Source: Flavobacteriales bacterium
Lineage (GTDB): Bacteria; Bacteroidota; Bacteroidia; Flavobacteriales; Flavobacteriaceae
Assembly: GCA_024229195.1 (NCBI GenBank)
Contig: JAAESS010000183.1
Coordinates: 1-38,761, forward strand
Length of the DNA stretch: 38,761 nt
Reading direction: 5' to 3'
Of the stretch, positions 1,790-7,821 are shown piece after piece. The translations under genes and the position numbers were made by a program. Below the pieces are notes generated by a model. It was not told the origin of the DNA and searched no databases. It worked only from the letters and a program-made list of their open reading frames with translations. Within the stretch, counting starts at the first letter, position 1; each line of letters starts with the position of its first letter.

Positions 1790-3475
1790 TTAAAACTTGT
1801 CGGTTACGCAACCTTCGGATGCGGATGAAACAGTTTTTGCATATTTATATAATATTCCCTTTGAATGTTTGGGAGCCGGCTCCTTCCATAGGGCTCTTCT
1901 ATTCTTAATTTCTTCTTCAGAAAGCTCCGCATTAATTGAATTGTTTGCAGCATCAATCGTGATCATATCGCCATCTTTTAACAGTCCTATCAATCCACCT
2001 GACTGAGCTTCTGGAGTGATATGGCCCACTACAAATCCGTGTGTACCACCTGAGAAACGCCCATCTGTGATCAAGGCAACTGTCTTACCAAGACCCGCTC
2101 CCATAATCATAGAAGTTGGCTTTAACATTTCAGGCATTCCAGGACCTCCTCTTGGTCCAACATAACGGATCACAACTACATCTCCTTTAGAAACCTTGCC
2201 TGCTCCTATACCGTCATTGGCTTCTTGCTCTCCATCAAAAACTACTGCCTTTCCTTTAAAGAGATTTCCCTCCTTGCCGCTTATTTTAGCAACGCCGCCT
2301 TCAGCAGCGAGGTTTCCAAAAAGAATCTGCAAATTACCAGAAGACTTTAGTGGATGATCCGTGCTGTGAATCACCTGTTGATCATCTTCAAAACTCAGAG
2401 GTTTCACATCTTTTAAATTTTCAGCCAAAGTTTTTCCGGTTACTGTCATGCAATCGCCATGCAGGTAACCACCTTCCAGTAAATATTTCATAACAGCTGG
2501 AGTTCCTCCAACACCATGAACATCTTCCATCAAGTATTCACCACTTGGCTTAAGATCAGCGATCAAGGGTGTTCTGTCACTTACTCTTTGAAAATCATCT
2601 AGTGTAAAATCAATACCCGCAGCATGCGCTATAGCCAGATAATGTAGTACGGCATTAGTCGATCCTCCTAGGGCATTCACCAAGGCAACGGCATTCTCCA
2701 AGGATTTTTTTGTGATGATATCTAAAGGTTTTAAATCAAGCTCAAGTAAATTTCTTACTGCCGCAGCAATTCTTTCACTTTCATTACCCTTGTGAGGGTT
2801 TTCAGCTGGTATAGAAGAATTGTATGGTAGGGCAAAACCAAGTGCCTCAATAGAAGACGCCATAGTATTTGCCGTGTACATTCCTCCGCAAGCACCTGCT
2901 CCCGGAATTGCACGTTTGATGATTTCCTTATATTCCTCATCTGAGATATCTCCTGAAATTTTTTGGCCCAAGGCCTCAAAGGCTGAAACAATATTTAATT
3001 TCTTTCCCTTGTAATTTCCTGAGGCTATTGTTCCTCCATAAACCATCAACGAAGGTCGATTCAATCGAAGCATGGCCATTATAGCTCCTGGCATATTCTT
3101 ATCACACCCAACAACTGACACAAGTGCATCATAACTTTGGGCATTCATCACTACTTCTATGGAATCTGCAATAATATCTCTTGACGGTAATGAATAATTC
3201 ATTCCGCTGGTCCCCATTGATATACCATCACTCACGCCAATCGTATTGAAGATCAGACCAACCTGTCCTTTCTTATTTACCTCCTCTTTGATACCTGCAG
3301 CCAAATGGTTCAAATGCATATTACAGGGATTACCATCATAGCCTGTACTTGCAATACCTACCTGTGGTTTCTGCATATCCTCATCATTCAAACCTACTGC
3401 GTAAAGCATGGCCTGAGCCGCTGGTTGGGTTGCATCCTGTGTTAATCTTTGACTGTACTTATTTAAACGCTTCAT
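1790..3475 (-). CDS. ilvD: Dihydroxy-acid dehydratase
   Basis: Dehydrates 2,3-dihydroxy-isovalerate and 2,3-dihydroxy-3-methylvalerate to the keto acids that precede valine/leucine and isoleucine. At 561 residues it has the usual IlvD/Edd length. Three cysteines fit iron-sulfur ligands: Cys51 (GNPCNMH), Cys124 (GCDKNMPG) and Cys196 ([14 protein letters not shown]). The spacing with Cys51 present resembles the [2Fe-2S] class more than the oxygen-labile [4Fe-4S] E. coli type, which is an inference from family knowledge. The C-terminal signature [19 protein letters not shown] is present. The ATG at 3473-3475 has no clear Shine-Dalgarno sequence, as is usual in Bacteroidota. It is the first structural gene of the ilvD-ilvB-ilvN operon, about 200 nt downstream of an Ile/Val leader-peptide attenuator. 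Confidence 0.97.
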
Positions 3476-3672
3476 TAAGAGAAAAGATAAATTTTAACGT
3501 GTTGATATTCTTTTAGAGAATATTCTTATTTCTTACATATTCTACAAAAATAAACAGGCTTTCTCCTACTAGCGGATTCTTATTTATTTTATTACAACAT
3601 TCAAGTGTGCCTGAAATTCACTTAAGTACTGATTATTAGATTTTTAAACACTCTAATTTACAAGGTTTAAAC
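3476..3672 (-). other. ilvD 5' untranslated region downstream of the attenuator
   Basis: About 200 bases between the attenuator U-tract and the ilvD ATG with no plausible reading frame. On the minus strand it contains one perfect Bacteroidota -7 box, TATTTTTG (plus-strand CAAAAATA at 3545-3552), about 70 bp before ilvD. No TTG sits at the expected -33 distance, so this is only a possible secondary promoter that would bypass the attenuator. The region is otherwise AT-rich and without strong hairpins. Confidence 0.4.
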
Positions 3673-3699
3673 AAAAAAAAACCTCCCGAATGGAAGGTT
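3673..3699 (-). terminator. Rho-independent attenuator terminator in the ilvD leader
   Basis: On the minus strand, AACCTTCC (3699-3692), a 4-nt loop ATTC, then GGGAGGTT (3687-3680) form an 8-bp stem with one G-T wobble, followed directly by a run of T down to 3673. It lies between the leader peptide and ilvD, so it would end transcription before the operon. Its 3' arm (CGGGAGGT, 3688-3681) can instead pair with ATCTCCCG inside the leader peptide gene (3745-3738), giving the mutually exclusive antiterminator expected of a translation-coupled attenuator. Confidence 0.85.
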
Positions 3700-3726
3700 C
3701 ACATGTTTATACAGCATTAGTTCTTC

Positions 3727-3792
3727 CTAATCAATCGCGGGAGATGTAAAAATAATAATGACTGCTGATATGTTAGATTGTTTTTGTTGCAT
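3727..3792 (-). CDS. Ile/Val-rich leader peptide of the ilvDBN operon
   Basis: A 21-codon frame begins with ATG at 3790-3792 (MQQK...) and stops at TAG 3727-3729. It contains the run I-S-A-V-I-I-I-F, with codons ATA, GTC, ATT, ATT, ATT, and one more ATT before the end: five Ile and one Val in 21 residues, no Leu. It sits 27 nt upstream of a terminator hairpin and upstream of ilvD, the arrangement of ribosome-mediated attenuators such as ilvL. The bases ATCTCCCG, which can pair with the terminator 3' arm, start 6 nt after the last ATT of the run. A ribosome stalled on the first Ile codon would just leave them free, while a ribosome finishing at TAG would cover them. The function of the peptide is regulatory; its sequence beyond the control codons probably does not matter. 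Confidence 0.85.
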   Translation of the reverse strand: MQQKQSNISAVIIIFTSPAID

Positions 3793-3821
3793 TGTGAGTC
3801 TAATAAGTAAAACTAATAATT

Positions 3822-5366
3822 TTATTTGTACTGAATACTTGATTTTTTTCTAATTATTGATTCAACTGATACATTATCAATTTTACTCTCTAACCATGAA
3901 ATTATATCCAGATACATAAAGGATCTTTTTTCATATGGATGATTTTCAAAAACTTTTAATTCACTGTGCAATTCTTTAAAAGCATTTTTTAATTCATGAG
4001 GGTAAATATTGCTCAGATTCCTTAAAAAGGTGATGATTCTTTGCTGCACCAAATGAAGTTCGTTCATTTTGATCAAAAATTTATAGGTCGATTTGATCAA
4101 AGCTTCGAGATTCTGATCCAAGCCTGCCTCGTAATGGGCAATAAGGTTCAAAATTCTGGTAAAACAAAGCAAGTCTTCCCGCATCCCTAATTGTTTGTTT
4201 TTTATGATCTTTTCAAGATAAAAAATACTCTTTTCATAATTTGATGCTCCAAAATACAAGCTGGCAAATTTATAATAGAAAACCATGACATGATGTTCAT
4301 CGATTTTTGATCGATGACTTTCAATCTCCTCCAGAACTTCAGGAATTATGCTAATGCCAAGGTTAAAATCACCTTCTAAAAAATACAAGTTGATTTTATT
4401 GAGATAGAGATATAAAAATGCCAATGACTCTGTATTCTCATTGATCAGAAAATTTTGATTGTTCAGTTCTTCCTCAAAAAAATTCAAAGTAGATCTGAAT
4501 TTTGTCAAATGTTGAACCAAAAACAATGATTCCAGCAAATAATTGATCCCTTTTAAATAAAAAACAGGATTACTTTTTTTCATTTGAGGGTTGTAATAGA
4601 ACAAGTCGACCCATTTCTGAGCATAGCGATATCCGGAAACAAAATCTTGGGTAATAAAACTGTACCATAGATAAGCCTTGTACAAATAAAGCCTTTCGAT
4701 TACCCCTAAGTTCTTGATATTATATTCGGGTAACAATTTCTTAAAACAGGAACGAACCTCATCAAAATCCTTGTCATTACTTACATATCCTTTTTTAAGA
4801 AGCATACTGTATAGTTGTATGGAGAGATTTGATAACTTACTCAGCATTAACGTCTTTTCTCCCAAATCTTTAGACTGAAGAATCAAATCATCTGCCCTAC
4901 TGCTTAAGCTTCTGGTAATGTATTGCGATTCTACTACTTTTTCCAATTCAACAATGCTAAAAGCCAGCGTTGAATCTTCATTGTTCAATGCAATTCCTTT
5001 GGCTTTATCCAAAATCTTAAGGCTCTGTTTGTGAAGACCTTTATTAAATAAAATTGTCGCAAAATCCAACTGTTCTCTCACCTGCATCTTTGCATTCTGA
5101 TGGATTGGATTTAGTTTCAGACTAACCAGAATTTGTCTGTATAAATGGGCTTTTGAATTTGAAAGTTGCTGCTTCTTGATATTTGTTTTTAATAGAATCT
5201 GCTTTTCATCGAATTCATCAAGTTTATCCAACACAGAAAACAGCGCAATAAAATTCTTTTCAGAATTTCCGCCCAGTCTTCCTGCGTACAATTTAAACTG
5301 TCTTTTTTCGGATTTGGTCAAGGATTTTACCAATAAAAAAAGAGCGTCTGTTTTCTCCATAGACAT
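3822..5366 (-). CDS. Conserved helical (TPR-like) protein of unknown function
   Basis: The 514-residue product has no signal peptide, no membrane segment and no catalytic motif I recognise. It opens with a Lys-rich segment around LVKSLTKSEKRQFKLY, which resembles the start of uncharacterised Bacteroidota proteins. The rest is almost wholly predicted helix rich in Leu, Tyr, Lys and Asn, with repeat-like stretches such as FNKGLHKQSLKILDKAKGIA and ASNYEKSIFYLEKII that resemble degenerate tetratricopeptide units. A protein-protein scaffold is an inference. Two starts are possible, ATG at 5364-5366 or ATG two codons later (MEKTDALF), with no ribosome site to decide. It is divergent from leuA and stands upstream of the ilv leader on the same strand, 29 bp from the leader ATG, so read-through into the ilv operon is possible. 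Confidence 0.8.
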   Translation of the reverse strand: MSMEKTDALFLLVKSLTKSEKRQFKLYAGRLGGNSEKNFIALFSVLDKLDEFDEKQILLKTNIKKQQLSNSKAHLYRQILVSLKLNPIHQNAKMQVREQLDFATILFNKGLHKQSLKILDKAKGIALNNEDSTLAFSIVELEKVVESQYITRSLSSRADDLILQSKDLGEKTLMLSKLSNLSIQLYSMLLKKGYVSNDKDFDEVRSCFKKLLPEYNIKNLGVIERLYLYKAYLWYSFITQDFVSGYRYAQKWVDLFYYNPQMKKSNPVFYLKGINYLLESLFLVQHLTKFRSTLNFFEEELNNQNFLINENTESLAFLYLYLNKINLYFLEGDFNLGISIIPEVLEEIESHRSKIDEHHVMVFYYKFASLYFGASNYEKSIFYLEKIIKNKQLGMREDLLCFTRILNLIAHYEAGLDQNLEALIKSTYKFLIKMNELHLVQQRIITFLRNLSNIYPHELKNAFKELHSELKVFENHPYEKRSFMYLDIISWLESKIDNVSVESIIRKKSSIQYK

Positions 5367-5515: not shown

Positions 5516-6691
5516 ATGAGCAAAAATCAAGTCCAAATATTCGACACAACCCTTAGAGATGGAGAGCAAGTGCCTGGTTGTAAGTTAAATACGCCAGAAA
5601 AACTAATCATAGCAGAGCGATTAGATGAACTGGGTGTGGATATTATAGAAGCTGGATTTCCAATATCAAGTCCTGGTGATTTTAACTCTGTTGTTGAGAT
5701 TTCCAAATTGGTCAAAAATGCTACCGTTTGTGGCTTGACCCGAGCAAATATGAAAGACATTGATGCGGCCGGAGAAGCTTTAAAGCACGCTATCCGTCCA
5801 AGAATTCATACAGGTATTGGTACTTCTGCATCTCATATCAAATACAAATTCAACTCTACACCCGAGAAGATCATCGAAAGAGCCGTAGATGCTGTAAAAT
5901 ATGCCAAAACATATGTTGAGGATATCGAATTTTATGCGGAAGACGCAGGAAGAACAGATAATGTTTTTCTCGCAAAAATCTGTGAGGAAGTGATTAAAGT
6001 TGGGGCAACAGTTTTAAACATTCCCGATACAACCGGTTATTGTTTACCGGAAGAGTATGGAGCCAAAATGAAATATTTGATGGAAAACGTCAAAGGCATA
6101 GAAAATGTAACATTATCATGTCACTGTCACAATGATCTCGGATTGGCAACTGCAAATTCTATAGCCGGTGTACAAAATGGAGCACGACAGATTGAATGTA
6201 CGATCAATGGATTGGGTGAAAGAGCCGGTAATACCGCTTTAGAGGAAGTAGTGATGATATTAAAACAACATCCCTACCTAGATCTTGACACGAATATCAA
6301 TACGCAATTATTGTACAGCACCTCTCAAATGGTACAGCACCATATGGGAATTCTGGTACAACCGAATAAGGCTGTGGTAGGAGAAAATGCCTTTGCCCAC
6401 AGTTCTGGGATACATCAGGACGGAGTTATCAAAAACAGAGCAACTTATGAGATCATGGATCCTGCTGATGTTGGAGTCAATGAGTCTTCAATTGTCTTGA
6501 CGGCCAGAAGTGGAAGAGCTGCATTGGCCTACAGAGCAAAAAAAATAGGTTTTGATCTGACTAAAATTGAACTTGACCAAGTTTATCCTGAATTCTTAAA
6601 AACCGCTGACAGCATGAAAGAAGTTGGAGATCAGGATATAGAAATAATTATAAAGAACGTAAGAGTGAAAACTAATAAAATAGCTTCTTAA
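5516..6691 (+). CDS. leuA: 2-isopropylmalate synthase, short form without C-terminal regulatory domain
   Basis: Condenses acetyl-CoA with 2-oxoisovalerate, the first step committed to leucine. The TIM-barrel HMGL-like domain is complete: [10 protein letters not shown] (residues 9-18, metal and substrate site), the metal-binding pair HCH at 203-205 in [15 protein letters not shown], and [15 protein letters not shown] subdomain with [13 protein letters not shown] follows. The chain ends at 391 residues, about 110-130 short of the common bacterial LeuA, so the C-terminal leucine-binding dimer domain is absent. That suggests it is not inhibited by leucine in the usual way, though short forms occur in Flavobacteriia. 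Homocitrate or citramalate synthase are alternatives in the same family; leuB 11 bp downstream favours LeuA. First gene of a leuAB pair. Confidence 0.88.
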
Positions 6692-6702
6692 TAACTATAG
6701 GA

Positions 6703-7821
6703 ATGAAATTAAAGATCGCTGTTTTATCTGGAGATGGTATCGGACCTGAGGTCTGTGAACAAGGTGTCAAAGTACTCAAAGCAATTGAAAAAAAATTTAA
6801 GCATCAATTCACTTTTGTAGATGGACATGTAGGAGGTGCTGCTCTCGATACCAAAGGTGTTCCCTTGCCTGATGAGACGCTGGATATTTGTTTAAACGCC
6901 GATGCGATTCTATTTGGTGCTATTGGTGATCCCAAATTCGAAAATAGTCCGGATGTAAAAATAAGGCCTGAAGAAGGTTTACTCAAACTGAGAAAAGAAT
7001 TGGGCTTATTTGCTAATATAAGACCCTTAAAGGTTTTCGAACCTTTAGTTCATAAGTCACCTATCAAAGAAAAGGTGATCAAGAATACTGATTTTATTAT
7101 TTTCAGAGAATTAACCGGTGGTATTTATTACGGAGAAAAAAGTACTAGTTCCGATGGTAATTCAGCTATGGATACTTCTCATTACAGCATTGAAGAAATT
7201 GATCGTGTCGCTCATATGGCTTTTAAATCGGCTAAAAGCAGACGAAAAAAATTAACCTTGATCGATAAGGCCAATGTACTTGAAACATCAAGGCTTTGGA
7301 GAAAGAGAGTTAAAGAACTTGCAAAACAGTATCCTGATGTAGACGTAAATTATCTTTATGTCGACAATGCTGCCATGAAGATCATCGTTAACCCCAGACA
7401 GTTTGATGTTATACTGACAGAAAATTTATTCGGTGATATCATTTCAGATGAAGCCAGCGTAATTTCTGGATCAATAGGTCTGCTTGCTTCTACTTCTATT
7501 GGTGAAAAATCTGTACTTTTTGAACCCATTCACGGTTCATTTCCTGAAATGAAAGGAAAGAACTTAGCCAATCCATTGGCCACTATTTTATCAACTGCCC
7601 TCCTACTCGAGCACTTTAAATTATATGAGGAGGCTGATGCGATTAAGAATGCTGTTGAAAAATCAATTGAACATCATATCACAACACCTGATATCAATTC
7701 CACAAAGAAATTTGCACACACTTCATCTGTGGGAGATTTTATATCTGAATACATCAATGATAAAAAAAATATACTCTATTATATGGAGAATATTTCACTC
7801 GGACAATCTACGATCATTTAG
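6703..7821 (+). CDS. leuB: 3-isopropylmalate dehydrogenase
   Basis: NAD-dependent oxidative decarboxylation of 3-isopropylmalate to 2-oxoisocaproate, the third leucine step. The 372-residue product has the iso-dehydrogenase fold: N-terminal LSGDGIGPEV, the substrate-binding arginines around RPEEGLLKLRKELGLFANIRP, catalytic Tyr in GGIYYGEK, catalytic Lys in LIDKANVLETSRLW, and the metal-binding signature NLFGDIISDEASVISGSIG. The NAD site GSFPEMKGKNLANP is NAD-type. A short tail of about 16 residues after SEYINDKK has no obvious role. It starts 11 bp after leuA, clearly in one operon. The isomerase subunits leuC and leuD, which usually sit with these genes, are not in the window. Confidence 0.96.
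   Translation: MKLKIAVLSGDGIGPEVCEQGVKVLKAIEKKFKHQFTFVDGHVGGAALDTKGVPLPDETLDICLNADAILFGAIGDPKFENSPDVKIRPEEGLLKLRKELGLFANIRPLKVFEPLVHKSPIKEKVIKNTDFIIFRELTGGIYYGEKSTSSDGNSAMDTSHYSIEEIDRVAHMAFKSAKSRRKKLTLIDKANVLETSRLWRKRVKELAKQYPDVDVNYLYVDNAAMKIIVNPRQFDVILTENLFGDIISDEASVISGSIGLLASTSIGEKSVLFEPIHGSFPEMKGKNLANPLATILSTALLLEHFKLYEEADAIKNAVEKSIEHHITTPDINSTKKFAHTSSVGDFISEYINDKKNILYYMENISLGQSTII

Follow-up and report, generated by a model that had tools for sequence, protein, structure and literature searches.

A predicted isoleucine/valine leader-peptide attenuator upstream of ilvD in Flavobacteriaceae, with candidate serial versions in some relatives

Background

Attenuation in the enterobacterial trp, his, thr and ilv leaders combines a leader open reading frame (ORF) carrying regulatory codons with the pairings 1:2, 2:3 and 3:4, an intrinsic terminator and an operon that makes the sensed amino acids. 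These leaders, which include the leader-peptide attenuator ilvL preceding ilvGMEDA in Escherichia coli, are among the closest known systems to the one described here. Such attenuators have reportedly also been predicted in some Bacteroidetes/Chlorobi (by Vitreschak et al. in 2004).

The ilvD-led operon of Staphylococcus aureus is reported to have a leucine-rich attenuator peptide (PMC5794164), and ilv leader-peptide attenuation is reported before the ilvD-led operon of Listeria (PMC5864092); unlike our locus, both belong to Firmicutes, and the S. aureus peptide is rich in leucine. Actinobacterial ilvB genes are preceded by terminators and by short ORFs containing runs of Ile, Val and Leu; these ORFs overlap the hairpin of the terminator, and how regulation works there is described as unclear (PMC1262725), whereas classical alternative stems are supported here. 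Leader-like short ORFs lie within long 5′ UTRs in Bacteroides thetaiotaomicron (PMC7366714). For Flavobacterium psychrophilum, a member of the same family as our genome, strong clues for leader-peptide attenuation before amino-acid biosynthesis operons have been reported; pheA and hisG are two of the structured 5′ elements named there, and 'ilv' is absent from the main text (PMC9723704). Judged by titles and abstract starts among the open-licence PMC matches listed, no ilvD attenuator of Bacteroidota has been described.

Here we analyse a stretch of 38,761 nucleotides from a bacterium of the Flavobacteriaceae (contig JAAESS010000183.1), referred to below as the window. Judging from sequence comparison, the element preceding its ilvD gene is very probably a classical four-segment, ribosome-mediated (leader-peptide) transcription attenuator for Ile and Val. 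It differs from the enterobacterial leaders in having no Rfam match, in the predominance of Ile and Val with Leu not prominent, in a segment 2 that overlaps the stop codon and in the gene order. The mechanism, as read from the sequences, is an ordinary and classical one in a new place; the unexpected element is its serial version in relatives. Permutation tests and further loci from a second set support an Ile/Val attenuator that appears widespread before Bacteroidota ilvD operons and has no Rfam match in the window and 10 relatives; we give a better supported wiring for it.

Results and discussion

The ilvD locus of the window

The whole attenuator, ilvD and ilvB are located on the minus strand of the window, and comprise the following features:

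3792-3727, minus strand: leader ORF of 21 codons, MQQKQSNISAVIIIFTSPAID, with stop codon TAG
3762-3751, minus strand: putative regulatory codons GTC ATT ATT ATT (Val-Ile-Ile-Ile), inside the leader ORF
3756-3767, minus strand: segment 1 (protector), CAGCAGTCATTA in the leader, predicted by folding to pair with TAATGCTG (3719-3712)
3712-3727, minus strand: segment 2, comprising GGAAG (3727-3723) and TAATGCTG (3719-3712)
3692-3700, minus strand: segment 3, terminator 5′ arm, GAACCTTCC, whose CTTCC (3696-3692) is predicted to pair with GGAAG of segment 2 (antiterminator)
3679-3687, minus strand: segment 4, terminator 3′ arm, pairing with segment 3
3700-3679, minus strand: stem of the terminator hairpin (arms 3700-3692 and 3687-3679), extending to 3673 with the T tract
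3681-3673, minus strand: T tract of nine T at the terminator end
3745-3738, minus strand: ATCTCCCG, the antiterminator arm proposed earlier, complementary to CGGGAGGT at 3688-3681
3475-1790, minus strand: ilvD, dihydroxy-acid dehydratase (TIGR00110, 735.8 bits)
1770-28, minus strand: ilvB, acetolactate synthase large subunit (TIGR00118, 698.4 bits)

The original prediction, made from the letters of the window alone, had described a 21-codon frame with Val-Ile-Ile-Ile codons, a terminator with a T tract and then ilvD, without naming a strand. We find all of these in place, and all on the minus strand: the leader ORF abounds in codons for the end products of the pathway, and an intrinsic terminator separates it from the first structural gene. 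The operon had been named ilvDBN; the TIGR models bear out ilvD and ilvB, and ilvN would lie beyond the window edge, which cuts off the stretch after ilvB. In the two nearest relatives that we looked at, out of three fetched, two ORFs come after ilvD-ilvB, the first of 174 aa and the second longer (491 aa in L284; only partly within the stretch in L283); we take them to be ilvN and ilvC. The final base of the stop codon is also the first of GGAAG in segment 2, and an alignment of 17 rows (A1) has TAGGAAG as its consensus. Between the hairpin stem and the start of ilvD lie 203 nt. A scan of 3200-4200 returned three terminator-like sites, two of which are the same hairpin, compared with an average of 0.3 in shuffles. 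Folded in isolation, the 120 nt of the element are only moderately better than shuffled sequences (z of -1.67; 12 of 200 shuffles as good), and the case therefore rests on comparison rather than on a single fold.

Directly upstream of the leader, a 514-aa ORF on the minus strand (3822-5366) has its stop 30 nt before the leader. It matches a BT2802 family ribose utilization model below threshold (124.6 bits against a cutoff of 550) and a TPR model weakly, and its coding end aligns, by eye, beside the ilvD region in 17 of the 18 genus loci. Further away, leuA (5516) and leuB (6703) form a separate plus-strand group (5516-7821) directed away from ilvD. The leuA ORF (391 aa) covers only the first ~383-388 positions of the longer LeuA models (494 and 516), and a reading of the 150 bases preceding it, without the detector described below, revealed no leader ORF.

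Leader-terminator units upstream of ilvD in relatives

The regions preceding ilvD, each of at most 650 nt, were collected from 160 distinct loci, namely the window, the best 80 of 594 confirmed candidates, 20 loci from the genus and 60 from the family, minus one duplicate (L144, identical to L034). The detector calls a unit where an intrinsic terminator follows an ORF that has five or more Ile/Val codons within a stretch of nine. Such a unit was detected in 80 of the 160 regions, compared with 0, 0, 0, 1 and 2 of 160 in five dinucleotide shuffles and 1 of 160 in the reverse complements. With the same settings, 24 of 57 loci in a later set carried a unit; for this set 60 family loci were fetched and three duplicates dropped (L213, L216 and L233, identical to L012, L015 and L014). 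Both batches of 60 family loci were taken in listing order, leaving out G035 and G095. The second terminator of L140 was dropped on account of its shared leader; the later script skipped shared leaders automatically, and this was its sole difference. Three distant ilvD relatives (L099-L101, 45-46% identity) were kept among the 160 as misses, and L191 was kept in the later set though apparently a false positive. Over both sets, the detector found no unit in 113 of 217 loci.

Within the genus, 13 of the 18 orthologous loci carry the unit, window included. The five others (L085, L088, L089, L090 and L096) have an orthologous ilvD with no unit detected; a terminator-like stem is still visible in the genus alignment in L085, L088 and L096, which suggests decay of the attenuator. 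Conversely, the unit is present where the upstream sequence differs: L091 has no aligned upstream coding end, and L008 likewise differs, its upstream sequence being read as the end of leuB.

The 86 units of the first set and 31 of the later one, 117 in all, were classified by terminator stem: 79 belong to class A (GGAAGG stems), 22 to class B (TGATACAGG stems) and 6 to class C, with 10 others. In the window genome, the single match to the class A pattern is the window's own unit, and the class B stem pattern has none. Consistent with the earlier claim that the sequence is unrelated to known attenuators, the window has no Rfam match for the attenuator at the gathering threshold or at permissive thresholds, its best sub-threshold score being Phe_leader with 22.2 bits against 55; the 10 relatives gave only tmRNA and SAM-II matches at the gathering threshold and none for the attenuator. 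The SAM-II riboswitch matches (L029:1842-1901 and L118:146-227) lie near the region upstream of ilvD, on the other strand.

Covariation of the classical pairings

Fixed-column covariation was scored on MAFFT alignments A1 (17 sequences) and A2 (34 first-set units, the others having been left out by leader length or by hand). In A1, the cells of 3:4 are 100% paired in the 17 sequences, a value reached by 2 of 500 shuffles; in A2, 3:4 was not above shuffles and 1:2 was in part supported. For 2:3, pairing in fixed columns was high and double changes showed no excess. We think that slippage of the stems in register, and the low variation among close relatives, lie behind this weak fixed-column result, and for these reasons we used an alignment-free permutation test, which compares the RNA duplex energy of each unit's own segments with that of segments permuted among units (5000 permutations) and removes shared ancestry only partly.

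In the 86 units, the pairing of the post-stop stretch with the terminator 5′ arm (2:3) has an energy of -9.84 for own segments and -7.47 for permuted ones, and that of the leader-coding stretch with the post-stop stretch (1:2) has -10.33 compared with -8.77; in both cases 0 of 5000 permutations did as well. The later 31 units gave -11.92 against -8.09 for 2:3 and -12.68 against -9.56 for 1:2, again with 0 of 5000 each. Both pairings likewise stand at 0 of 5000 in all 117 units, in class A units and in a set thinned to 38 dissimilar units, while in class B units 2:3 gave 16 and 1:2 gave 0 of 5000. Two control pairings yielded 369 and 4541 of 5000 in the first set and 2569 and 4704 in the later one. 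Within the genus alone (13 units), 2:3 was not significant (1278 of 5000). By reading the sequences we also observed pairs for 2:3 that have changed and still match: GGAAG with CTTCC in the window corresponds to AATGATACGG with CCTGTATCATT in L016, AAAGGGAT with ATCCCTTT in L026, TTAGGAA with TTCCTAA in L003 and AAGGGA with TCCCTT in L093.

Modelled ribosome states and proposed mechanism

To model the ribosome, we masked its footprint and folded each transcript through the last base of the terminator loop; this treats equilibrium rather than kinetics, with a footprint size set by us. Averaged over the 86 units, 2:3 has a probability of 0.65 when the ribosome sits on the Ile/Val run and of 0.07 when it sits on the stop codon; of the 86 units, 76 shift by at least 0.2 as expected and 0 shift by that much the other way. 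In the later set the values are 0.69 when stalled and 0.08 at the stop, with 29 of 31 units shifting as expected and 0 in the opposite direction. In the window itself, whose 2:3 helix is short (5 bp, -7.6 kcal/mol), the probability is 0.34 when stalled and 0.03 at the stop; once the full hairpin is included, the terminator has a probability of 0.97 for a ribosome at the stop codon, against 0.57 for a stalled one.

The pairing and masking tests support a 2:3 exclusive of the terminator, which a ribosome halted at the stop codon would prevent, and a 1:2 that stalling would disrupt. For the window we envisage a transcription start a short way upstream of 3792. As long as charged tRNA-Ile and tRNA-Val are plentiful, the ribosome would reach the stop codon and, since segment 2 overlaps that codon, cover segment 2; the terminator 3:4 would then form and transcription would end before ilvD. 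If Ile or Val were short, the ribosome would stall at GTC-ATT-ATT-ATT and cover segment 1; segment 2, left exposed, could then form 2:3 with the 5′ arm of the terminator, allowing RNA polymerase to read into ilvD, ilvB and later genes. We infer the start site, the translation of the leader, stalling, the efficiency of termination and the response to amino acids.

Amino-acid input

Detector counts and permutation tests support the original proposal of leader-peptide attenuation by way of Ile and Val codons. Over 86 leaders, Ile accounts for 30%, Val for 13.5% and Leu for 6.1%, and Ile is encoded by ATT (401), ATC (74) and ATA (39). We stress that the argument for an absence of Leu sensing is partly circular, because the detector picks Ile/Val-rich ORFs: richness in these two residues is its criterion, and Leu is not selected against. 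Leu occurs in the densest nine codons of 22 of the 86 leaders. The position of leuA-leuB apart from ilvD, together with the ilvN/ilvC-like ORFs after ilvD-ilvB in relatives, fits an input of Ile and Val without Leu.

Promoter-like sites around the attenuator

The genus alignment reveals three further features around the attenuator:

3808-3815, minus strand: P1, candidate -7 element, TAGTTTTA, one mismatch to TANNTTTG, close behind the end of the upstream ORF (stop at 3822)
3656-3670, minus strand: conserved block TTAAACCTTGTAAAT, after the terminator and before P2
3545-3552, minus strand: P2, promoter-like -7 element, TATTTTTG, between the attenuator and ilvD

The motif TANNTTTG is what we take to be the flavobacterial -7 consensus. 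At the aligned place of P1 it is exact in 10 of the 13 genus loci with a leader, and one base off in the window and in its nearest relative (TAACTTCG). At most 70 nt upstream of the first leader it occurs in 30 of 104 loci, compared with 2 for a control stretch and 18 for the reversed pattern, and a TTG lies 14-28 nt before the site in only 6 of these 30. The region from terminator to ilvD (3670-3545 in the window) is conserved across the 18 genus loci, and in all 18, including those with no leader detected, TANNTTTG is found 41-78 nt before the ilvD match. That five of these 18 loci keep P2 although no leader is detected indicates that the attenuator is dispensable for ilvD; a real P2 would let some ilvD transcription escape attenuation.

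The block TTAAACCTTGTAAAT was considered as a possible regulon motif and rejected (22 genome matches with at most 2 mismatches, against 27 for the reversed control). One other exact copy, in L162, lies among what we read as unrelated small ORFs.

Alternative explanations

The original prediction had placed the antiterminator elsewhere, in a two-state design in which ATCTCCCG in the coding part of the leader, with its CTCCCG, pairs with the terminator 3′ arm and is masked by a ribosome at the stop codon. The complementarity over 8 positions lies where it had been placed, and in the window it is strong: its 8 uninterrupted pairs reach -12.9 kcal/mol, ranking third among the 117 units. With a stalled ribosome the model gives it a probability of 0.28, which accounts for part of the decrease of the terminator to 0.57, and the 194 of 5000 obtained for the 38 thinned units is one weak hint of covariation. 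However, the larger sets give no covariation: own and permuted energies are -5.57 and -5.44 in the 86 units (1082 of 5000), and the counts are 2887 for the later 31, 1845 for all 117, 971 for class A and 1058 for class B. In the aligned columns 57% of cells are paired, with shuffles equally good, and the probability exceeds 0.2 in only 6 of 86 units. In the nearest relative, L082, whose ilvD is 95% identical, the GGGAGG arm is kept and ATCTATTTGG stands instead of ATCTCCCGCG, with no CTCCC, so that the pairing is lost; we judge the arm, from these sequences, to be peculiar to the window genome. A purely two-state attenuator is accordingly most improbable, and of the pairings expected to recur in an alignment of relatives, 1:2 and 2:3 covary while this one does not, the Ile/Val leaders themselves recurring in 80 of 160 and 24 of 57 loci. 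Taken together, the sequences indicate that the wiring of the family is the classical one of 1:2, 2:3 and 3:4. The coding/3′-arm pairing might still, according to the model, contribute locally and recently in the window genome, where a conserved and weak 2:3 helix would be reinforced by a newly gained, strong one; we consider it unlikely that both act there, as the idea is based on a single sequence and L226 and L037 reach equal values.

A further reading is that the attenuator is largely bypassed, with ilvD transcribed mainly from P2 and the leader a fading relic in the window species. In its favour, P2 is retained in all 18 genus loci, P1 departs from the motif by one base in the window as well as in L082, and no leader is detected at five of the 18. 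But TANNTTTG is a loose motif, occurring downstream of terminators in 40 of 94 loci compared with 17 for the reversed pattern, no -33 element was identified for P2, and the leader and stems of the window are intact; we find this reading somewhat less probable still than a joint action of the two pairings. That an AT-rich ORF merely happens to lie before an ordinary terminator of the upstream gene, which stops 30 nt short of the leader and would require one, would agree with a single-sequence fold of only -1.67 in z, but the detector controls, the covariation and the occurrence of the unit beside different upstream sequence (L091, L008) speak otherwise, and we give this explanation hardly any weight.

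Serial units in relatives

Two units in series were found in 13 of the 104 unit-bearing loci: ten in the order A-B (L002, L029, L102, L194, L206, L210, L214, L225, L226 and L235), two C-C (L026 and L155), one other-A (L030) and none B-A. Between the first terminator and the second leader lie 5-45 nt, and TANNTTTG is absent from this spacer at all 13 loci. The window has a single unit. We put at even odds the hypothesis that at least two classes of Ile/Val attenuator exist in Flavobacteriaceae and beyond and that some lineages stack A and then B on one transcript, with ilv passing two ribosome gates of the same input; the window would represent the class A gate without a second. If true, such gates in series would reduce leakage and make the response steeper, and the natural single and serial versions make testable what a second such attenuator adds.

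Among the open-licence PMC matches listed, titles and abstract starts describe no serial leader-peptide attenuators with the same input. Salmonella mgtCBR has two leader ORFs with attenuators in one leader RNA (PMC3641672). This resembles the tandem arrangement of some relatives, and not the single unit of the window; as described there, the mgtCBR attenuators respond to two signals (ATP and proline) and are unlike intrinsic terminators, whereas in the flavobacterial pairs both leaders are Ile/Val-rich and have intrinsic terminators.

On an ilvD tree (quick method, 72 chosen rows), the A-B arrangement needs at least six changes, five of them forced by well-supported branches, so that either ancestry with losses or repeated assembly may account for it. 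In class B the stop codon is TGA in 21 of 22 units and the listed stretch begins TGATA or TGATG in 18 of 22, so that the pairing motif begins with the stop codon itself.
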